A stretch of 64,000 nt of DNA from Tubulanus polymorphus. Lineage: Eukaryota > Nemertea > Palaeonemertea > Tubulaniformes > Tubulanidae. The stretch's first letter is position 1; each line of letters opens with the position of its first letter. The stretch covers positions 26,492,650-26,556,649 of the forward strand of contig NC_134026.1 of NCBI RefSeq assembly GCF_964204645.1. Reading direction: 5' to 3'. This document shows, in pieces, positions 11,987 to 35,730 of this stretch. Made by a program: the position numbers and the translations under genes. The notes beneath the pieces are model-generated. The model saw nothing but the letters and a program-made list of their open reading frames with translations. It ran no database searches and was not told the DNA's origin.

Positions 11987-12079
11987 TAGTTCAGCACTCA
12001 ACAATCCAATATAACGGACTAGAAAATGACTTACTATCGCATTAAATTTAACAAAATGAGGTGAATTTATGGAACAATC

Positions 12080-14169
12080 ATGACAGAAAATCTATTGCTG
12101 GCTAGCAGTAGCGCTGCAATAGTTTTGGCAGTTCTACAAATAATCTTCTATATTTGGATGTTGATCAGCAATTTCCTGACATGGATTACACTACGAACTC
12201 TAAGAAAACAACATTATGGGCCCAGGAATATACTCTTAGGAATGGTAGTATGTAATCTACTATCCGCCACAGTCACAGTTGCGCTCTCGATACTTAAAGA
12301 TGCTACACAAGACTGGGAATTAGGCGACTTGTTGTGCAGTGTGTGGATTGGTTTGGACTTTTTTCAGCGGATGTTCTATGGTGTAGCCTTGTTGGCAATT
12401 ATGGTCAGCAAATTCATACAAAGCAAGCGAAGTTTGATGACTATGACAAGTAAATCATGGTGGCCGTATGTAGAGACTTTATCACCTTGGCTCGTAACAT
12501 TGATAGTAACTGTTATCTGTGTAGCGGCAATCGGTGATCATTTTTATATCAGCATAAAAGCGGATACGTATACAACACTAAAACAATGTAATTGGTTGAA
12601 TACAGGTACAGCAGTCCTAGTAGATCTTCTCGTATCATATCTAATATATTTCATTCCAACATTGGTTATGTACAGCATTCTGTTCACAAGTACATCAGTT
12701 ATACATGTACGAGATGATTTAAGATATCCGACGGATGAAGAACTGTTAGACGAGAATCGGCCACAAAGTCAAGACAGCTGTTACGGTAGCGAGATCAATA
12801 CGTCGCCTAATTCTAAAAAAGGGTCAGCAAAAAGTAACCGCACAAGGGTTTCATCAGGGGCTGCATCACGCTCCTCATCATATCGTTATCAAACGCCCGC
12901 GCCAGACAAGCCGCCGCTACCGAGCAATGAAATCATCGATCAACTTCGACCAGTTTCTGGGAAAAAAAATCGTCTGCCGAAATTGGAACAAGAATGGCCG
13001 ACGATTAACAGTTTCGCTTACAATAATCTATCGCAACAAAATATGACACAAGCGAGACCAGTAACAGCCCGTCTTCAGAATAGACTAATCATAGCTGAAT
13101 CTGACGAAAACATCGACACAATCGTAGCAAAACATGGGCAATCAAGCAACGGAGTTGTACAAAATATAAAAGTGAATAACTTCGTGCGACAGAAGTTAAA
13201 AGCAGTTAATTCTGTGGTGGGAATATGCGTAGCCCCTCGTCCGCATACCCGTCAATCCACGTTAAAAACAATCATAGATTCTGATCGGGAAGACGAAGAA
13301 AGCGAGACGGTCTTGGATACCCCGCCGAGTAGAGAAGGAAACCGATCCGAAAGTCGCGCTATCAGTCGAACATCAAGCCGAAACCAAATAGTGACAACAC
13401 CTCGTGAAGACAGACTGTCGCCTCGGCCTGTAATAACACCACCACAAAACAGAAATCAGAGTAAGCATCATTAGGCTTTAAAAAAATCATACCTTGTTTC
13501 TCATAATCAGCCAGGCCATGTTATTAACTAAAATAAAATTTGTGATCAGTTCATTTCTATAACTGCCGGGTCTATTATGATTAGCTTGATCATGATTTAA
13601 AAAAAAGTAATGTACAGGGTAGATAGACGACCGGCTGGGTCAACTTTTAAGCCCAACCGAAATGGCGGTTGGCCAGTTCAACTTGAGAATGAGAAACAAG
13701 GCATCAATTTTTTAAGCCTTTCATCTTTTTTGTCATTTCCAAATGATTTTTTTCTGATACACTAAAAACGAATATTTCATATGTAATTGTTTCAGTCGCG
13801 ACACCGCTTGGAGAACCTATGGAAAATGCAGATGAAACCCTGGAGAATTACTGTTATATCGAAAGAGAAACAACTATACTGGATATGAATAAACCAGATT
13901 TTAGTGCGGAGTGTGATCATCACACATTCATGAAACGTGCCGGGATATTGTTGCTGATTTTCTATCTCGCACATCTACCACGTTTGATTGCAAATATTGC
14001 TATTGCAACATGTGATTCATGTCAAATAACTGTGACTGCTTATTCAGCCGTACATTGGATTCAGTACCTCAACCTTGCACTAAATCCACTATTTTTTCTG
14101 TTAAAGTTTGCGGATTTTAAAAGGAAACTCATTAATGTGCTAAAATGTAAACTATCCGATTCAAAATGA
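12080..14169 (+). CDS. Aminergic-like class A GPCR with very long third loop
   Basis: Coding exons are 12080-13460 and 13796-14169 (phase 1 intron, GTAAGC donor, TTTCAG acceptor), giving 584 residues. Seven membrane segments are visible: N31 (1.50), C86 (3.25) paired with C170 in loop 2, W137 (4.50), P193 (5.50), F516 and P522 in TM6, and N557-P558 in TM7. D93 sits exactly seven residues after C86, the amine-binding 3.32 position. TM7 reads WIQYLN, matching the W-x-G-Y-x-N aminergic signature apart from the glycine. Departures: the 2.50 aspartate is N59, DRY is replaced by SKF (110-112), the TM6 CW pair is AH, and NPxxY ends in F. The third intracellular loop is about 300 residues, Ser/Thr-rich and probably disordered. 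The ATG has A at -3. The ligand is unknown. The gene runs antisense to INPP5F and may lie inside one of its introns. Confidence 0.88.
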
Positions 14170-14188: not shown

Positions 14189-14396
14189 GAGCACTATTTG
14201 AATGATTTTATGACAAAATGAAGTTGACATTTTAGTAGATAGAATCCATTAAGGATTTGTATCTTTAAAGTGTCTGTAAATTATCAATTTATTCATCTAA
14301 CACTGTCAAAGATTTGTGATGTCACTTTTGAAACTGATGTGATTGTTTTTCATCCAATAAAAAGACTTTTATCATAATAAAATACATGTTGTGTAC

Positions 14397-17300
14397 CTTT
14401 ATCTAATCTTGGAGGGGGTCGATACTTGATACCAGATTGACTCCAAAATACTGGTATAGATCCGCGAACCAGAACAAATGCAACTGTATGTGGCTGTTTT
14501 AGATCATGGGTGGCAATTATCTGAATAATAGTGAATGAAATGACGCAGATGAAAGATATTTCATGACGAAATGGAATGACAACGAATAGTAGGATTGAAT
14601 CGCATCTTGATACCTGCTCGGTTTCAACATAGTTCGCAACATGGCCATCTTCATCAACGCCTCGACAACGCACCCGAGTACCTAGCAGTCAACGAGAAAA
14701 ACCATAAATATTTCAGAACACTGGAGATACACACACGCCATCTATCAGAACAATCAATAATTGCAGCAACGACTGATCAGAGACCATCTATGAGACACAC
14801 TGATTAACAGTCATCTGCTTAGAATCGTTCAGTCTGCTTTTGAAGTTTATTATTCAAAGCATATAATAAATATCTAATATAACTACCCTTGAGGTTTGCG
14901 TTAAAATATCAAGGATAAATTGTACTTTGTATCATACATTGCACATAGATGTTTCGATGTTAATATATCAACTTCAACAGAACACATGGTTATGTACGCA
15001 GTTGTGTAAATACAATAGCCGTGCATATGTTACTGAATTACAGACTACAAGATCAATCTGCAATCAATAATTCAATCGGATTAGATTTTTGATAATACAT
15101 TGAATACCAGCTCATACCAGCTCGATGTCTGCATCTACGAGATATAAGACCTAGTGTAAAAACAAGCGGTTCACGCGGGCCACTCGAAGGTTGCAGCATC
15201 TTGTACGGATTGAAGTCCAATCGACAATGCTCGATTTGTATGTAACCTTGAATTATTGGCACGATCCAATGGTCAGCAGCTGCATCCTGAAACAAGCAAT
15301 TGGAATGATTAAGTTATCATCAGGAAATGCAGCCTTTATTTAAGGTGACATTTAATTCAATCAGAACAAGGGAGAAGTCACTACATATCAGGGCTGTAGC
15401 ATTCAATATCTATCAGCGTGCGATACTAACATTACACTGTATAAGATCATCAAGCATCGTCTTGTTCCAGAAGAAACGGTCATCGACTCGTTTCCACAAT
15501 GGTAACGTTCGATCGTAGTCCGGTGAATGTTGACGCTGAATTGTATTCGTCAGATCGCTGGTCGTACTGTAGTAAAACGAATCGAGCTCGTTGAACATTT
15601 TCAAGATTTCCTACCCGAAAAAAAAAACAAACAAAACATTTAGAGAAAATATATTTGAATTCTTCTTGATTGAGCGATGCTCATTTTCAAGCCCCTATCT
15701 TCACCTCGAGTACTCTTCGATCAAATTTCTCCTTTTCCTTGACTTCTTTCTGCAAAGGTATAAAAGACATTGCTCTATACAAGCAATTGGTTCCTTTGAA
15801 ATATACCTAAGTGGATACAGACGCCAACAATCAACATCAGATGTATCGATTGTCAATTACCTTCTTTGGTTTGACATTTTCAGCAGCTGATTTAATTTGG
15901 TTCCAGGTTTTCTGTAATGGCATTTTTGATCCATCTGGGGATTGCGTTATCTTCTCGGTCTTTCTCATGCCAAAGTGGTGTTTTTTGCATAGCTGTAAGT
16001 AACCAGCGATACCAGGTAACTGCAGATACATCCTTTGAAATGTTCGAGGATATTTATACATAATTCTCTACTTTGATATTGTTCACCGAATAAATCAGAT
16101 CTATTTGAAAAGAACCTTATATAAGAGGTGTAATAACTAGGGGAAAAGACTGATATGAAAATCGATTTATTCAATCAATCATGATTTGATTTTACTCCCA
16201 ACGGATACAAAGCTTGAACGTGTGGCGTGTTCGTTGATGAAGAATATCTGGACCTCAAAACATATCAGATAGTTACTCGCTTGGTTCATTAACTTCAACG
16301 TAAAATCGATTAAACGTTTGATGAATTCAAGAATCATTTGCCGAAGGACACAACACGAGATATGTTTCCTTTAATCGTATCCAGTCACGTGAATCTGAAA
16401 GCTAGTTGTATTCATCACATGGAGTTACATCAACCCGATTGTCCAGTGACTGATGGTAAACCAACCATTTGGCAGTGTAAGATAAACTGCAGAAATTCTA
16501 TCGACTATCCATAAATCATACATTCGTCATTATTACACGCAAACATATCAGATCAAGATACACGCACAAGAAAACCTTGTAGTATATATATATATATATA
16601 CAGATGAAAGTGTGGTATCACAGTAGGTCTACCCCTCAGTAGATTTACAATTGGAAAAAGAAAACTATGTTATGCCTCCAAACCGAGATAATTTTTTTCA
16701 ATCAACTAACTGTAAATAGAGGTTTCGTTAGTCAGTTATTCTTCAATTTGTTAGTAGTTTAGGGAACGACCATTCAAGTTAAAAAGGCAAGGGTTTGATG
16801 TCCATCAGTTATTTTCATTCTACCAATTTATATGATCAATTTGAGATATTATGGCTGAATGAGAAAATGTTTCTGATGCGTTGCAGTAGTTTATAGCCAC
16901 AGGCGTTTTTGGCATGTGCCAAATTATTCCCACGGGTGCCTCATGGACCCAAAACATCGGACCAGGCCAAAGCCAAAATCTAGCACGGGTCAAATTATTG
17001 CGTGTGAATTGCGGAAGTGAGTCACTATCGAGTGACGTGTGAATGCGCTCTCTAATTAGGCACGGGCCTGATCCGGGCCAAATCATGTCTGTATAATCGC
17101 GACTTAGGCCTATATCATTGAAGTACTGTCCATGTCACCTGTTTGCTTTCATTACTACATAAGTATTTAAAATCTAAAACCAATCACAGCATCTCGTGAC
17201 ATATACGAGCCATATATCAACCACAGTGTAGTCATGGCAATCAGTGGAATCAGATAATTCTTATTCCGTGACGATGAGAAACAATTTTTATACTAAAATT

Positions 17301-24900: not shown

Positions 24901-27900
24901 GGGATTTTGGAGATGGAACATCGCCTGTTGTCAAAATTGGTTTCCTGAAAGGGTCAACAGTTAACCATACATATATAAAAGGAGGTGACTTCTCAGTTAA
25001 GATGACAGCGAGTAATGAAGCTGGAAGTAATACTGCATGTATTAATGTTAATATATTTGGTAAGTTTTATTACGAAATTATATATTGGTAGAGATACATT
25101 GATGGTTATCAATACATAAACAATAGTATTCATTATAGTTTTCTTCAATTGTTGCTCAGGCAAACTTCGGTTCTCGTAGTAAGTCAACTGCAAACTAAGT
25201 GAAGCTGAATGTCAGTAAGTCCGGTCCAAAAATAGCAAACCGTGTGATGGGCAAGATCTAACTTAAGTGCATTCAATTATTAGTTCCGACCGCTAAATGA
25301 CTAACTACAAAAACTGAAGTTCGCCCGAGCTGCTTTCAGAATTTGGGTTCAATCATGTTTTAAAAATTGACACACGTCGTATAAGTTTTTTTGCGCCCTC
25401 TCTGTAATCTCGATGTGTTAAGCTGTAGATAATACAATTCATGAAGCTGTTACTGATTGCAAGCCATGTCAGCGCAAAATCAAAAATCATCGGTGTTGTA
25501 TTGTGACCTATGAAGCTTAGAATCGTTTGCTGTATCGTGAAAGGCAACCAACAAGTGAAAAACATCACTACAGTTACAGCAATAGTTTTGATTGCTTTGC
25601 CACCTCCAATTTTCACTGGTTTGCCTCCATGGCGTGTGATGATAGATATGTCATGTACATGTCGGCGAGTTATTTTGTGAATTTTGTAGTATGAAAAAAT
25701 AATCAATATCATACCCGGAATAATCTGTAATCCAAATGAGTAAAGTACTATGTGATAGTTCATCGGAAAGTTGAAATGGCTCGCAAATGTACTCGGTTTG
25801 TAATAGTATTCGCCAAATCCATAAAATGGTGTTGTAAGTATGAGTGCATTAACCAGCCAGTTGGCAGCATTAATCATCATACATCTACTAGCAGACATGA
25901 TTTCCAAATAATGAAATGGTCTGCTTAAAGCCATGTATCGGTCAAAGCTCACTGTGCCCAGGGTTAGAATAGAAACGGCACAAAATAACTGCGCAAAGAA
26001 TCCATGAACTTGAACGGACTGCGTAGATGCCGGATAAACTCCGCTGAGTGAGTACGGTAAACTAGTGGTCAAACATACAAAACCGACTCCCAAATCGGTC
26101 AATGCCAGATTTACGAGGAAACATCCTGTATTGTTGTGTAACTTCTTCGTCGAAATAAGCACTGCAAAATTGAATATTGTTCCCACTAGAATAAAGAGTG
26201 TGATGAAGAATATGATAATCATGCAGGGAACACATTTAGTGCAAGCTGGTTTTCCATATGTATTGCACATCAATCCTGTTGTATTTACAGTCATTGTTTC
26301 AACGTCTGTTATATCTCTAGACAAGATGCATACCTCATTGGTATTCCGTTTGACATTCAGATTTAAGCCACTATCAATCCAGTACTTAGCTGAAACTTTC
26401 GCTTCTTATTCACATATTTCTGAGCTAATTTAGTTTATTTGCTTCTGCAGTTGAATAATTAATCAAATTCTAATGCATAACTATTGCTTACTTTAGAGGT
26501 AATTGTGGGAACTCCCATGTGGTTCAAATTACTGTATTGATCATTACTATGTCCATTGAAATCTGGACAGAACATTTGATCGATAAGAAATACATGCCAC
26601 ACGATTTATCGAAAAATCATATGTCATATGGCTTTTTCGATCAATTCTATTACAGATATTGTTTGTGATGAATAATTAAGATTTAACTCTTCTGTCTTGC
26701 TAGATGCTATTCTCGAGTTGGATACAGATGTCCCACATGGTGTAGTTGCAAACAGATCATTTTTACTGTATTCAACTGCATTACCTGTGAACGGTAGTCA
26801 TGGTCATGTATTTTATGCTTGGACATTTGGAGATGAGGTAGGCAATTTATTTAAGACCACAGAAATCTGTATAAAAACATGTCTCATGCTATACTTGATG
26901 TCTCAATGAATACTGTAAATCTTAGAAAAAAAAGCCTCCCATGTTGACCTTCAAGACTTCAGTGGAACATACGTATCGTAAAGCTGGTACATATACAACA
27001 ACTGTAGAAGCTTTCAACACAGTTAGTCGATTCATAAGAAAATTTACAGTTCATGTTTACCGTAAGTCTAATACCGTTTTTTTCTCATTGATAAATTGAA
27101 AATTCCTACATATATTTTTTCAAACATTGGCAAAATCTTTTTCACTTACAGCAACTTCTGAAGACTTCCTTATCGTTCATCTTGGATTTGATAAACACCT
27201 CGATCTAATGAAAATTGACACAGAAGAATGGAGGCTATTTTTTGGGAATCTATTGAAGAACAAGTTGCTTGCTGCAAGTATTTTTGTTTTAATATACCTG
27301 TATATCCTTTGATATGTTGATATAGACATGCATGAAATGTTTATTTCTATCCCATTCAGACTCTGTCGATGTCAAAAGATTTGACTTTAGATGTGATAGT
27401 TAACAAAGGTATACCAACTACTGCAGATGTTGAAATCTATGCGAGTACAAGTCAAGCTGAAAAATCCTTCAAATTTCAAATTAAAGAGGTGTGTTATAAA
27501 TTAAGGGTATAATGATTTTCAAATTGACCATTCATAGGTAAGGACTTAATCTCATTGCTATATATTTTTCTTCGTGGACAGTTGGGTAATGCACTAGTAC
27601 GAAAAGTGAATACCAGTCACATGATGATTGATTTTGTAAATGGTTATGCTGTGCAGATACGAAATGCCAAAATCGATGGTATGAAAAGAAAAAATTTCAG
27701 AAATTTTAAGTGAAAAATTGCGATTAGTCTCACTCTCTCCAGCTAATTATTGTTTGTTTGCAGTTCCAGTTCCTAAACCAACTCCAGGACTACCACCCAG
27801 AGGATCCTCTGGGTATGCAGCTATCTATATCTGTGTTCCGATACTACTTGCAGCTATATTCGTCTCTGCTCTTGTTGTTATCCATTATAAAAGGTAATTA

Positions 27901-28333
27901 CATGTACATTCATTAGTATACAGGTTGTTCAGTGTGTAAATCAAGTAGAATCAATCAGCTCAGAGTAGATCCATATTACATCATAACATCTAGATATACC
28001 TATTTGCATAAATTACAGAAAGTTCAGAAATGTTCATCGCTATGCAATGATGCGAAGCCGTCCACAAGCTGATAGTCTTTTAAATGATATGGACAATGAT
28101 CTTGATGACGATGATCCACCGTTGGATCCCAATCCAAGTATTCTCAATGACGATTCAGATGATGATCCCCTTGGTGAGTAAAATTAACCATTTGGAATTC
28201 GATGGTATAGATTTACAAAAAGTGGCTCAAAATTTCATTTCATTTTCCATTCTCAGTGGGTGAACCGACGTTGGTTATGATGACTGGTGCTGAAGTTGTA
28301 AATGATGAACAGAGAAATCAAGTTAATGTCTAA
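20710..28333 (+). CDS. SORCS: SorCS-type VPS10-domain sorting receptor (complete)
   Basis: Exons: 20710-21003, 21126-21193, 21281-21374, 21464-21619, 21699-21769, 21860-21924, 22159-22280, 22364-22453, 22745-22915, 23005-23151, 23299-23401, 23480-23553, 23635-23735, 23813-23920, 24006-24123, 24205-24341, 24419-24535, 24617-24794, 24873-25059, 26704-26837, 26926-27061, 27152-27273, 27360-27488, 27582-27678, 27764-27893, 28019-28173, 28257-28333. Total 3381 nt, 1126 residues, every phase agreeing. It is a type I membrane receptor that sorts cargo and neurotrophic ligands between Golgi, endosome and surface. Order of parts: signal peptide about 1-25; furin site RIRR (54-57) ending the propeptide; VPS10 propeller with STDGG and CDEGKTW Asp-box-like turns; cysteine-rich 10CC region about 588-700; PKD domain with WDFGDGT at 748-754; a second PKD-like segment at about 801-890; a SorCS-specific membrane-proximal region; TM about 1024-1047; and a 79-residue acidic tail with a YAMM endocytosis motif (1058-1061). 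The PKD domain separates SorCS from sortilin and SorLA. Intron 22 appears to be GC-AG. Confidence 0.93.
21939..21974. repeat. TA microsatellite in SorCS intron 6
   Basis: About 18 TA units start roughly 14 bases after the intron 6 donor at 21925. Confidence 0.9.
25353..26294 (-). CDS. Orphan class A GPCR, intronless, nested in SorCS intron 19
   Basis: This is a single open frame of 313 residues from the first in-frame ATG at 26294. The frame stays open upstream to a stop at 26406-26408, so a longer or spliced amino end is possible. Seven membrane segments carry N42 (1.50), D67 (2.50), D118-R119-Y120 (DRY), W146 (4.50), P193 (5.50) and CWLP at 248-251 in TM6. TM7 has N286-C-I-I-Y290, so the NPxxY proline is a cysteine. 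The usual disulphide cysteine at 3.25 is V94, and the second extracellular loop has no cysteine. The short amino end holds four cysteines (10, 18, 21, 24) and an N-glycosylation site NTT. There is no lysine at 7.43, so it is not an opsin, although the loop 2 text PFYGFGEY recalls opsin and prostanoid receptors. Ligand unknown. The host intron is 1.64 kb and is occupied mostly by this gene. Confidence 0.85.
   Translation of the reverse strand: MTVNTTGLMCNTYGKPACTKCVPCMIIIFFITLFILVGTIFNFAVLISTKKLHNNTGCFLVNLALTDLGVGFVCLTTSLPYSLSGVYPASTQSVQVHGFFAQLFCAVSILTLGTVSFDRYMALSRPFHYLEIMSASRCMMINAANWLVNALILTTPFYGFGEYYYKPSTFASHFNFPMNYHIVLYSFGLQIIPGMILIIFSYYKIHKITRRHVHDISIITRHGGKPVKIGGGKAIKTIAVTVVMFFTCWLPFTIQQTILSFIGHNTTPMIFDFALTWLAISNSFMNCIIYSLTHRDYREGAKKLIRRVSIFKT
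26608..26641. repeat. Imperfect hairpin upstream of the nested GPCR
   Basis: ATCGAAAAA pairs with TTTTTCGAT, and an inner CATATG pairs with CATATG, with two small mismatches. It lies about 310 bp upstream of the nested GPCR start and 63 bp before SorCS exon 20. It may be structural or fortuitous. Confidence 0.5.
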
Positions 28334-29943: not shown

Positions 29944-32358
29944 TTAACTGTTTCTGAAAAACTTAAACAGAATCCCTGTACTAACTCCAATGATAGCAAT
30001 TATCCCACCAGCCACTACAGCTTGATTTCTGAATATGTTTCCTCTCTCATTATGACCATCATTTGATCCACGCCCAACAGAATTTGTGACAATTGAATGA
30101 TCAACATTGCAACTTTTTGGCACTTTATCATAGTCTTTTTGAGCAACATCACTCTCACTCATGAATTCACTGCCAGTATGGGATTTTTCAGCAGACATCA
30201 AACTATTTTCATTTTCTGTTGCTTTATCATCATTTTCTGGTTTGTCAGCGGATTGAGGGGATACGGATGCATCCTCAGATACATACGTATTTAAGCTGTT
30301 TTCATCACTAGCATTTGAGGTTTCAGTTGAAACCTCGTGCTCTTCAGTCTCTTTATAGATGCCACCTTGAACATTTTCTTTCCCACTTGCCTGGTTTTTC
30401 TCCATCTTTTTACCACCGGCATTATTGTCACCTGCTAATGTCTCAAGGATCTCTGATTCATTTAATGATGTTTCTGGCATACTCGAGTGATCCTCTAAAT
30501 TTTCATGTAGTCTACGTATATCATCTTTTGTTTTAGTTATCAGCATGTCAGCTGCCTTAGGTTTGACAATACCGGTACCTCCATTATACCTCTCTTCCTC
30601 AATAATATTCGGTTGTGCCCATGCTCTTTCCTCAGTTGTCAGGGATGTAGGTGGTAAGCATACGCTGGAGGTTTGAGAAACCTTACTTTGAACATGTTCC
30701 TGTAATGTTGGATCATTAGACTTTTTTGTAGGCAAACTTACACGAGCCACCTGCAAACTTTTCACAGTTGATGCCTCGCAATGTTCATTATCCTGGAATT
30801 CTGAAGGCAAACTTAACACTGCTTTCAATTTTTTTGGATCCATTGGTTGGTAATCTTCTATGTTATCTAATGACTGATTATTATTAAGTATTTTCTTCTC
30901 TGCTCTGGTAAGGGTCAAAGTTCTATTACCATTGTTGTTGAGGCTCAACACATTTTGATTTGAGTTCGCATCTGTGTTATTAGCTGAACTCATTGATTTA
31001 CCAGAAACATTCAAGGGATCATTTACTTGTTCTTGAACTGCATTTTGAGTCATGACTGACACATTCATAACATCATCAGCTACATCAGTCTGAAATATTT
31101 GAATTCAACATACACAAAGAAAGATAACATTTTGACACATTTTCTTCTTGTTTAATTCACCACGCTTAAAATGTACCTCATCAAATCTAATATTGTTTAT
31201 CCAATTGTAGCCATCTACAGTGCTTATATCATATAACACATCTAATCGCTGAATTGCGTACAAAGCTTGCAGTAATTCACCAAGTGTAGGCAGCTGAACA
31301 GATGACTGCCACAAGTCTAACATTGTCAAAGTAGGACTGAATTTTGCTGTGTTAGCGGCAGCAATGTCATCTGCTCCAAGACCTAAAAATACCAATTTCG
31401 TTAAATTGCATTCAAATTCATCCAAATTCTTGTTTTGATCAATTAATCACACAGCGCATTTACACTGAAATTTCTTGAACTGGAGGTATAAAGTACCTAA
31501 TTTTTCTGCAAGAAATTCCCAATTACGAGTGAGAGATTGTGCAGCACAATAATCCAAGCGCCTCAATTTTTCATTGACAAAACTCTTGTAAGGTATTTTG
31601 TGAAAAAGGGTATCAAGTGTTGCTTCCTTTAAGAGTTGTCTTGGCACAGTTGGGTGTTCCTGAAGTATGCAGGCAAAATATTCTCTGATCATATAGCAAT
31701 TAGATATGTTATGGGAAATCTGATTGCCCTGATTGAACAGGTCATAAGTATTCAGCTACATTTATTCTGAGTAAAACAAATGAATATCTACGAATATTAC
31801 CAATGGAATTTGTTCCGTTTGTGGTTCATTCGTTCTTCTATCTATAAGCATAAATAAAACCAAAAATAGGTGAACCCATCAAAGTTTAGTGTGTTTAATA
31901 CGTCAACTGCTTCATCTCTATGAAGAAAACTAACCCATCAGAATATCGGAAACTGAATTTAGTCTCATGTCTTCACTGTTCAAAACTGAGTCAAGCTGTG
32001 ACACCCCATTACTTTTACCATATAGTGATCTTAAAAAACTTGATAGTGCTTCGGTATTTCCATATCTGTCATAGTCACACATCACCTTCTCCTGAAGAAT
32101 TTCAAAAATGCACAGCCACATGTCAGAGATGCAAGATATTATTCAGGAATAGTTTAGTGTAGTTAAACTGACCATTTCTCAAGCTCTCACTCAGTTCTCA
32201 ATTCCTATACCATAACTTACCCATTCTTGACTTGTTAATACTTTACGAAATACTGTATTCTTTAAAAGACGAACATCTAGCTTCAAAGATATTTCATTTA
32301 TATGGCTTTCCATTCTTTTAATCCCCTGTTTATTTTGTTCGTATGTTTCAGAAGTCAT
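29944..32358 (-). CDS. CARD-like plus death-domain tail-anchored adaptor (MAVS-like)
   Basis: Coding exons (minus): 32358-32221, 32091-31935, 31841-31801, 31659-31497, 31382-31177 and 31089-29944; 1851 nt, 616 residues, all phases agreeing. An acceptor at 32366 just before the ATG implies a 5' UTR intron. Residues about 10-98 look like a CARD: the LT-x14-GN spacing (LTSQEWEK then GNTEALSSFL) is the same as I recall in the CARD of vertebrate MAVS. Residues about 134-220 form a death domain: NWEFLAEKLG, DDIAAAN, TMLDLWQ, LGELLQALYAIQRLDVLYDI, closest to MyD88-type domains. Residues 236-588 are a Ser/Asn/Glu-rich disordered linker with a TRAF6-type P-x-E-x-x-D site (PSEFQD, about 330-335). Residues 591-610 are a single hydrophobic helix followed by KFFRNS, typical of tail anchors of the mitochondrial outer membrane. 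There is no TIR or kinase domain. By inference it is an innate signalling adaptor; an alternative is an unrelated death-domain membrane protein. No clear pLxIS IRF-docking motif was seen. Confidence 0.8.
31801..31841 (-). other. 41-nt microexon of the CARD-DD gene
   Basis: An acceptor ending CTTATAG and a donor CATTG|GTAATA bracket 41 nt. The microexon takes phase 1 in and phase 0 out, which is exactly what the neighbouring exons need (31935 ends phase 1, 31659 starts phase 0). It encodes the linker DRRTNEPQTEQIPL between CARD-like and death domains. Skipping it would shift the frame. Confidence 0.7.
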
Positions 32359-32366
32359 TTTGTTTC

Positions 32367-34248
32367 TGCAATAAAAATAACGGTTCACAGAAGATTTTCT
32401 AATTAGTAGGCCTACTGGTACCGTACTTTCAGTTGCACAACACATGGCTCGGAATCATGCAATTTTGCGCCTTACCCTTTGATTGAAATTCCTGGTGACG
32501 CCGTAGTTAATTACCGAATCATTTGGACCTAGTAAGCTTTATTATCATCAGCTTTATGAAAATATCCGATCGTGAAACTAAACCACAGACAGGTTACATG
32601 GCCGGACATCGATGGCATGACGACCAGGCATGGTTTGATTAATGATTGATAACAAGGAAGCTGGTCAGCGAACAACTTCCATTTATTTGTCCTTCCTGGG
32701 CCTGGCCTATCCTTCCTTTTGGCCTTGGACCTTGCTTTTTTAATTTTTAGGCCTATCTACTTTTAGTATTACTAATTATTATTATTAGTCTCCTGCATTT
32801 TATGATTGAAAACTTAATCCCCAGCAGCAAATGTCTTATAAACTACATACCGGTACTGAATCTATCTAAGCCAAAGCATGAATAAATGGAGCGTAATAGT
32901 CGAGAATAGAAACACAGACTGATTGAATGATCGATGTTGGGTTTTTCCCTGGTCTCTGTACTCCCCGCATGCCACAGTAGGATAGTCAATTAGTATGAAA
33001 TCTTAACCGTCAAGTGCTGCCGCTTTACATAATGTTGACGGCGAATATGTGAACTAAACTATATACTCAGGCACCGCAGGAGGAATATTGATTAATGGTG
33101 TTAGTTTGCATGTTCACCGCTTAATGTTTTATATAGCGACAGCACTTCACGGTTAAGATTTTACACCGTCGGCGGTCGTTATCATCACTCTTTCGGTGGA
33201 AAATCATTCCATTGTTTTATGTTTTATGGTTTGCGCAACTGGTTAGGATTTTTTGCAGTTACATGCATGTAAAACATTTGCAGAAAGTTACATTTCGCCA
33301 TTCGCTTTCCTCGGGCATCTTTTCCTCCCACTCCAGGTCACGGGGTATCGCCATTTGTTCTACCAAGAATTCAACCAAGACACCAAATGTGCGTGCGTTT
33401 AGAACGAAATAGAGCAATTTGAATATTATTTCATAAATGGTATTTTCCAAAAATGTACGAGCTACACAATGACTTGTACTATCTTTATCTTGATTTTAGT
33501 TGAAAATTCCTTGTTACATTTATATGCACGGTGGACCCGAAATCAGAATTCACCAATGAATTCGCACTGCAAATCGTCACGCAATTTAGGGGCCAATACA
33601 AAGTTGTGACCCTAAGAACCAAATGCTGTCTTTGCAAAAATGTTGATTTTGATGTACGGTAAATTCAATAAGCACCTAATGCCACGAGTAAAAGCAGATC
33701 TATGTGTTCCAAAATGTAAAAGGTATCGTGTTTTTGATCGAATAGAAGTGATGCAATTTGAGGTTGACTGTAGGATTTGTCGAGGTTGGTCTATGTGCAA
33801 GATTTGATGACGCACCAAGATTAAGGTCTGAGTGGCTTAAAAAAGGTCCAGCAAATGATTGCTTTTGGTCGAGTCTGACCAAAAGTAGTTCGTGTAACTA
33901 TAGCAGATCTGTAGCCCTAATTTCACCGATCCCGTATCATGCATGTTTATATTTGTTTATTTGTTTTGTCACAGATATGACGTAAACAGAGGACAATGTA
34001 GTACTACAGTCAACGTCATATCGACTGGCGGATCTGATATAAACAATCACACAATAACAGCGTCTATAGCAACCGTTAGTACTGGTCTGTTGGTAGACTA
34101 CCGGTATAAACATTGAATCTAGTGACGTAGGTATATCTGTGATCAAAACACCGCGACTAATCTCTACATGACAGTCAGACGCGTTTAACCATCCAGCCGG
34201 TACGGAACTTAGAAATACCAACTTAAGAAAAAGAAGCTATCCACCAAA
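32367..34248. other. Divergent intergenic region, CARD-DD gene and stathmin gene
   Basis: This region holds the 5' UTR and promoter of the minus-strand adaptor and of the plus-strand stathmin gene. It contains a foldback element at 32998-33161. Short frames on both strands (33212-33450, 33612-33985, 33937-34221) overlap one another, match no family I know and are not called. No TATA box or other clear promoter motif was recognised. Confidence 0.5.
32998..33161. mobile_element. Foldback (inverted-repeat) element, 164 bp
   Basis: The left arm starts AAATCTTAACCGT and continues AAGTGCTG-CGCT. The right arm is its complement (AGCG-CAGCACTT-ACGGTTAAGATTT). Over about 30 bp the arms differ at roughly four positions. 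The interior is non-coding. No target-site duplication could be fixed. Confidence 0.6.
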
Positions 34249-35730
34249 ATGGGATGCAAGAACAGCAAAGCAGCGGCAGTCCGCACCGTGACCAGCGGCA
34301 CCCGAAAACGAGTCTCGCCGATGGATGATGTGACAACTCCACAAAAACAGACGATTGTAATCAATGACAAGAACACATCCTCGAAAAAATCTTTGAAAAA
34401 ACCTTTTTCTCGTGGTAATTCTGTCAACGGCTCAATGGATAGTATCCTGGATTTAGCTGATAATAACGATAGTGACAGATTCGGATCGGCTGGGTCGAAG
34501 AGATCAAAACAGAGCAACGATTCGGGTTTGGGGGATAATTATGCGCATTTCATCACTGAAAATTCAGATCCGAACCTTGTTAAACAAGTGGAATCTGATT
34601 TCCTCGAGAAAGATGATCTAGGTAAGTGTAGAAATGAACTTTATGCGAATGAAATATCTTTATCATTTACTATATTTGATTATCATCTATTTATTTGTAT
34701 GTATAATTGTATATTATGTTTATTGTATTGTATATGTTATAGAATTTAAATAAAACATTACACATTATTTTCTAACAGATTTATGTGTATCTGGCACGGC
34801 ATGTCCAAGATTACTGAGTGCGAAAGACAAAGAAAGACAAGAAGAACAACGTGTATTGGCGGCACTTAGAGAAGAGGGCCTCATAGCCAGGCCGAAATCG
34901 AGAGCCGTTGGGGGTCTAGCGTTCGAGATTACCGAGGACGAAACGGACACGTTTAAACGACCCCCTAGGCTGGCTAAATTAGAATTGAAGCGTCGTAAAA
35001 AGAAGAAAGTTCTCACAGAGGAGCAAATCAAGGAAAAATTAGAAAAAGCTGAAGAACGCAAAAAGGTAACGAGTTTTTTTCTAGTACGTCCCATATTTTC
35101 GATATACATTGTACGATATAATTCAGATCAGTTTGCCCTAATTTTCATTCTCAGTAAAAAAAACACCTCGAAAATACACAATTCTTTTCAATGCTTGCAG
35201 TATTTATAGTTTATTGAATATTTTGTAACCTACTTGAACGTGTGCGTTTTTGAAATTACATAGAGCCGGATCAATAGTTCGTTGTAAAATTTCACTCTAG
35301 AGTAGTTAGTTCATTCACAGTTATTCGAATCAGTCAAATCTTAATTAACAACCTTTGAACTGCTTATGAATCTCTAAATTTTTGTGTATAATCTATTGGC
35401 TGATTCTAACTATTTCAGCTAAAAGAAGCTGAGCGATTGGCGAGAATAAATCAGCTGGAAAAGAATACTAAAACTGCCTTAGACACTTTCGAACAATCGC
35501 AAAAGCAAAAGGAATACGAAACGCTGGAAGAACAACAAAAACGAATAGAAGTTGCGTTGGACAATCGTGAGAAAAAACTCAAAGCACTTCGTGAAAAATT
35601 GAGACGGAAGGCTGAACATGCAGAAACGGTACGCCAACGAAAAAAGCTCAACCTGGATACTGTTTCTGATTTGAATAATGCTGATGATGGCCTCGAATCA
35701 CAGCAGCAAACACCGAACGACAACCTATGA
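34249..35730 (+). CDS. STMND1: Stathmin-domain protein with N-terminal acylation signal
   Basis: Exons are 34249-34621, 34779-35065 and 35419-35730 (phase 1 then phase 0), giving 323 residues. The amino end MGCKNSK fits N-myristoylation at G2 with palmitoylation at C3, so membrane attachment is expected. Residues about 20-140 are Ser/Asn/Asp-rich and probably disordered. From about 163 there is a stathmin-like region: GLAFEI, a basic KRRKKKK stretch, LTEEQIKEKLEKAEERKK, then a long heptad-rich charged helix to about 310. Stathmin family helices bind tubulin dimers; here that role is inferred. The MGC start plus late stathmin domain matches the little-studied vertebrate STMND1 rather than STMN1-4. 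The start codon has A at -3 and G at +4. The exon 1 frame stops soon after the GTAAGT donor, supporting the splice. Confidence 0.82.

Follow-up and report, generated by a model that had tools for sequence, protein, structure and literature searches.

The window analysed here is a 64,000-nucleotide stretch of Tubulanus polymorphus DNA, and on its minus strand, between positions 32358 and 29944, lie six exons that splice in phase into an open reading frame of 639 residues with no internal stop, as the sequence-only reading had proposed. Exon boundaries were set by GT–AG rules and by frame; GT–AG ends are present at all five introns (129, 93, 72, 114 and 87 bp) and the exons measure 138, 157, 41, 232, 206 and 1146 bases in order. 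Exon 1 (32221..32358, residues 1–46) holds the probable ATG and the first part of a CARD, and ends at a GTAAGT donor. Exon 2 (31935..32091, residues 47–98) holds the remainder of the CARD and begins at a tandem acceptor, 32091 or 32088, the second choice giving a protein one residue shorter. The 41-bp exon 3 (31801..31841, about residues 99–112), bounded by GT–AG, is a linker exon whose omission destroys the frame. A death domain is divided between exon 4 (31497..31728, residues 113–189 and one base of residue 190), which also encodes the region preceding it, and exon 5 (31177..31382), which completes it and runs to residue 258. Exon 6 (29944..31089, residues 259–639) supplies an acidic polar linker, a tail anchor and the terminal stop codon, the only stop in the used frame of that exon. 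The used frame is the sole open frame in four of the six exons, exon 1 among them; two frames are open in exon 3.

The start codon is probable but unproven, because the unspliced frame of exon 1 reaches another methionine 29 residues upstream, itself preceded by a stop. An acceptor-like TTGCAG seven bases upstream of the ATG raises the possibility of an additional untranslated exon on the 5′ side. No tandem copy of the MAVS-type gene was found in the 64-kb window by tblastn (best other match E = 0.88), and Rfam and ARAGORN searches gave no match. When the 258 residues from the CARD to the DEATH domain were compared with viral sequences, seven stretches fit the peptide pattern and none of them was confirmed by tblastn, a result that is uninformative for an animal gene.

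Several other genes share the window. A stathmin-like gene (34249–35727, plus strand; PF00836 E = 4.9e-4, under the cut-off), starting MGCKNSK, is divergent from the MAVS-type gene, the two start codons lying about 1.9 kb apart. The sole GGGW5CCC match in the window, at 32939–32949, precedes the start codon of the MAVS-type gene by 581 bp, and we take it to resemble a Rel/kappaB site; the expected number is 0.12, at least one occurred in 10 of 100 shuffles, and the pattern was picked after the sequence had been seen. The stricter GGGRNWYYCC has two matches in the window, none near the MAVS-type start. The ISRE-like pattern GAAANNGAAA occurs 15 times in the whole window against 5.5 expected, a count reached by one of 100 shuffles, with no occurrence within 32359–34212. 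Further away on the minus strand is a rhodopsin-type receptor gene in a single frame (25356–26405; 7tm_1 E = 1.3e-35), for which GPR21 was the best PDB match, followed by the beta-1 adrenergic receptor and GPR52, among the best 60 of 588 matches. A receptor-like gene of at least two exons (12065–14169, plus strand) has in its second exon the remainder of a 7tm_1 domain (E = 5.9e-6, under the cut-off); its first exon, which encodes a long polar loop as well as a hydrophobic region, has no Pfam match and weak PDB matches (5-HT5A, E = 9.6e-5). A SacI homology domain exon (14353–14688, minus strand; Syja_N E = 5.2e-21) probably belongs to a gene for a phosphoinositide phosphatase. Finally, a PKD-domain exon (E = 1.2e-6) at 26926–28178 on the plus strand is followed downstream by two separate exon-like frames, one of which contains a hydrophobic stretch and the other an acidic tail; these frames, which are left unjoined, perhaps belong to one type I membrane protein.

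The CARD of the 639-residue protein (residues 10–87; 31969..32331, minus strand) is split by intron 1. It matches PF16739 (CARD_2), which we take to be the RIG-I/MDA5/MAVS CARD family, with E = 1.2e-5 for the piece and 1.8e-4 for the whole protein, and the score of 25.7 bits is just short of the curated cut-off of 28.2. Exon 2 alone matches CARD_2 with E = 0.01 and exon 1 alone has no Pfam match. CARD_2 is the only CARD-type Pfam family matched by the piece; PF00619, presumably the classical (caspase-type) CARD model, is absent from the matches at E up to 10, a range in which the HMMER filters discard most matches above about 0.1. Control pieces (two reversed, and two of the four shuffles made) matched no Pfam family at E up to 10, and a match of the CARD piece to ACP_syn_III_C (E = 0.19) was taken as chance.

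A phmmer comparison of the CARD piece with 177,635 PDB sequences gave two matches at E up to 10, both weak (E = 0.31 and 0.63) and both to MAVS; they are the engineered horse MAVS CARD mutants E26R and R64C (PMC3932521). Aligned without gaps, the Tubulanus CARD is identical to the horse stretch, here the E26R mutant, at 13 of 56 positions and to human MAVS at eight of 55. The corresponding ungapped BLOSUM62 scores are 60 for horse and 20 for human, and 20,000 shuffles reached at most 16 and 9, respectively. All three proteins share an LT-to-GN spacing of 16, in agreement with the sequence-only reading, which had noted that the spacing equals that of vertebrate MAVS. This stretch crosses the junction of exons 1 and 2, and a spacing of 16 requires the first acceptor (32091); the alternative at 32088 gives one less.

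Filament contact residues of human MAVS, taken from the published description (PMC3932521), were placed on the same ungapped alignment. The contacts Asp23, Glu26, Arg37, Leu48, Trp56 and Arg64 are changed to Arg, Lys, Gln, Arg, Ser and Gly, respectively, while Asp53, Arg65 and Tyr30 correspond to Glu, Lys and Phe. In the vicinity of H3, Asp40, Arg41 and Arg43 correspond to Glu, Lys and Met. Glu26, Trp56, Arg64 and Arg65 are contacts common to MAVS across species, and at these positions Tubulanus has Lys, Ser, Gly and Lys, with a conservative change only at Arg65. The horse E26R mutant carries a basic residue where the Tubulanus CARD has its lysine. Assignment to the CARD fold family is supported by these comparisons, which likewise suggest that the contact chemistry of the vertebrate filament is mostly not conserved.

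The death domain (residues 171–242; 31225..31554, minus strand), split by intron 4, is the firmer of the two matches to its family: PF00531 is found with E = 2.1e-9 for the piece and 1.7e-8 for the whole protein, and the score of 37.8 bits is above the cut-off of 22.6. Exon 5 alone matches PF00531 with E = 1e-4 and barely passes (22.8 bits against 22.6), and exon 4 alone has no match. Other Pfam matches of the piece, to bDLD3 (E = 0.034) and Death_EDAR (E = 0.06), are weak and under cut-off. Profile searches of both regions, which had been suggested earlier, give CARD_2 just short of its cut-off and PF00531 above it. The domain had been called a death domain of MyD88 type, of which the death domain stands and the MyD88 specificity does not. 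A PDB search listed 14 sequences, with Unc5h2 (E = 0.025) slightly better than MyD88 (E = 0.053), then NF-kappaB p105 and p75NTR; moreover, unlike MyD88, the Tubulanus protein has no TIR family among Pfam matches at E up to 10. A structure prediction for the 68 residues of exon 5 by itself is all-helical and weak, with a mean pLDDT of 61 and a pTM of 0.29, and speaks neither for nor against a death fold.

Between the death domain and the C-terminus is a linker of about 350 residues (259–608), of which 69% are drawn from the set EDKRQSNPGT and 22% are hydrophobic, with 4% proline and a net charge of −25. Its composition suggests that it is disordered. The 19-residue Kyte–Doolittle mean peaks at 2.32 for residues 615–633 (29965..30021, minus strand), whereas no window that begins before residue 594 exceeds 0.72, and this predicted transmembrane segment is followed directly by the C-terminal KFFRNS. 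The long linker, anchor and basic tail noted earlier are all borne out, the disorder from composition. Short anchors that end in basic residues are suited to the outer membrane of mitochondria or peroxisomes, and the tail would accordingly anchor the protein in an organelle membrane, most likely the mitochondrial outer membrane.

The known MAVS phosphorylation motif, pLxIS, has no match in the 639 residues, and PxQx[TS] is also absent from the protein. One TRAF6-like PxExx[acidic/aromatic] site is present, PSEFQD at residues 353–358, and as many occur in 0.27 of 2000 shuffles; three [PSAT]x[QE]E sites lie in the linker, with as many in 0.16 of shuffles. Both counts are within chance and, in the absence of pLxIS, TRAF/TBK1 motifs were rejected as support for MAVS identity.

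The anatomy of the locus is thus one gene model with two death-fold-family domains, identified by profile match, and a hydrophobic tail. On sequence grounds the protein is most probably an invertebrate MAVS with the bivalve-type layout of CARD, DEATH, linker and TM; MAVS is the adaptor, held by a tail anchor, through which RIG-I-like receptors signal. The features of that layout are present: an N-terminal CARD of the RLR/MAVS class (under the cut-off), a death domain that follows the CARD and, by hydropathy, a TM segment at the C-terminus.

This architecture has already been published from oyster and scallop (PMC5557890, PMC9879056). In the oyster Crassostrea gigas, CgMAVS, whose GenBank accession is KY630189, is described as having an N-terminal CARD, then a Death domain in place of the proline-rich region, and a C-terminal TM segment (PMC5557890). 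The truncation series reported for CfMAVS of the scallop Chlamys farreri, accession OM069740, comprises the CARD, CARD plus DEATH, and all minus TM (PMC9879056). As far as published domain descriptions allow comparison, each has the elements of the Tubulanus protein in the same order. An earlier proposal of a MAVS-type adaptor with an extra death domain is therefore well supported as to the adaptor, and a novel architecture is ruled out by the CgMAVS and CfMAVS layouts (PMC5557890, PMC9879056); the arrangement had looked new because the comparison was with vertebrate MAVS only. With vertebrate MAVS the protein shares an RLR/MAVS-type CARD, the LT-to-GN spacing, a long linker and a C-terminal anchor. 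It differs in its CARD filament contacts and in lacking pLxIS and PxQx[TS]; in addition, the position taken by the Death domain in CgMAVS is proline-rich in vertebrate MAVS (PMC5557890), the Tubulanus linker being only about 4% proline. Elsewhere among molluscs, a Sydney rock oyster transcriptome lists a MAVS, with no domain layout in the available text (PMC4892480), and the available part of an Aplysia study gives MAVS as not identifiable (PMC9334734).

What is reported for the bivalve proteins suggests how the Tubulanus protein may act. The TM segment of CgMAVS is required for self-association and for binding the RIG-I CARDs; CgMAVS binds TRAF6, with binding of TRAF2 and TRAF3 reported as undetected, and the full-length oyster receptor and full-length CgMAVS are reported not to bind each other (PMC5557890). 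Its localization is given as cytoplasm, and in that account mitochondrial placement is not shown (PMC5557890). Scallop IKK3, a TBK1/IKKepsilon-type kinase, is bound by CfMAVS truncations, the CARD being enough for the kinase domain, and the two full-length proteins are reported not to bind (PMC9879056). Binding of the CfMAVS DEATH domain to CCD1 of IKK3 is implied by the truncations and was inferred by the authors (PMC9879056). The sequence-only reading had suggested that the Tubulanus protein could join RIG-I-type and MyD88/IRAK-type signalling on mitochondria; since scallop IKK3 also binds MyD88 (PMC9879056), the two pathways may instead meet at the kinase. In oyster, IKKalpha/beta-2 is reported to bind MyD88 and not to bind CgMAVS directly (PMC6685332). 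By analogy with the bivalves, from which each binding step is transferred, activated RIG-I-like receptors with bound viral RNA would nucleate the Tubulanus CARD, and the tail would hold the protein in an organelle membrane and, as described in oyster, help it to self-associate. DEATH domains clustered in this way would, together with the linker, recruit TRAF6 and IKK/TBK1-type kinases, and this recruitment would lead to activation of NF-kappaB and IRF.

RAIDD/CRADD combines a classical caspase-type CARD with a death domain and has no TM segment. A cell-death adaptor of this kind that had acquired a tail anchor, and recruited caspases to mitochondria, would also possess both domains found here, but we consider such an origin improbable. 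The CARD matches CARD_2, with PF00619 unlisted within the limits given above, and the two PDB matches listed for it are both MAVS; the Tubulanus protein has a TM segment, and the long acidic linker and tail suit MAVS and are unlike RAIDD. The domain order, too, is that of bivalve MAVS (PMC5557890, PMC9879056).

There is also a small chance that the gene encodes a MAVS paralogue without forward RLR signalling, a decoy or regulator whose CARD is incapable of vertebrate-style polymerization. The mostly changed filament contacts point that way, although invertebrate contacts may have drifted together. CgMAVS is reported to activate neither NF-kappaB nor IFN-beta/ISRE reporters in human cells and to attenuate TRAF6- and IRF-driven activation, which may be a species effect; against a decoy, knockdown of CgMAVS gives higher mortality after OsHV-1 (PMC5557890), and the 64-kb window contains no second copy of the Tubulanus gene. 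That the exons come from two genes, with the fusion an artefact of exon joining, is most improbable, judged on a sequence with GT–AG at every junction, phase kept, each exon open in the used frame and a resulting domain order known from bivalve MAVS (PMC5557890, PMC9879056).

Under the preferred assignment, an invertebrate MAVS of the bivalve type, the second domain invites a further suggestion. Lophotrochozoans have RIG-I-like receptors whose N-terminus bears a death domain in place of CARDs (PMC8998645), and a death-domain RIG-I-like receptor is reported in oyster (PMC5869526). We raise, as an unlikely but specific idea, that invertebrate MAVS has in its death domain a second port, at which death-domain receptors dock through death–death contacts, with CARD receptors docking on the CARD, and that vertebrates lost both halves together. 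In a literature search mostly of sources outside subscription journals, the available text held no statement of the MAVS death domain as a port for death-domain RIG-I-like receptors. If the idea is true, one adaptor serves two receptor classes.

The locus contributes a clean gene model for the CARD–DEATH–TM form of MAVS and, in an animal outside the bivalves, would broaden the range in which the sources cited here describe that form. Given the existence of death-domain RIG-I-like receptors in some invertebrates and the changed filament contacts of the CARD, the role of the extra death domain becomes a testable question.
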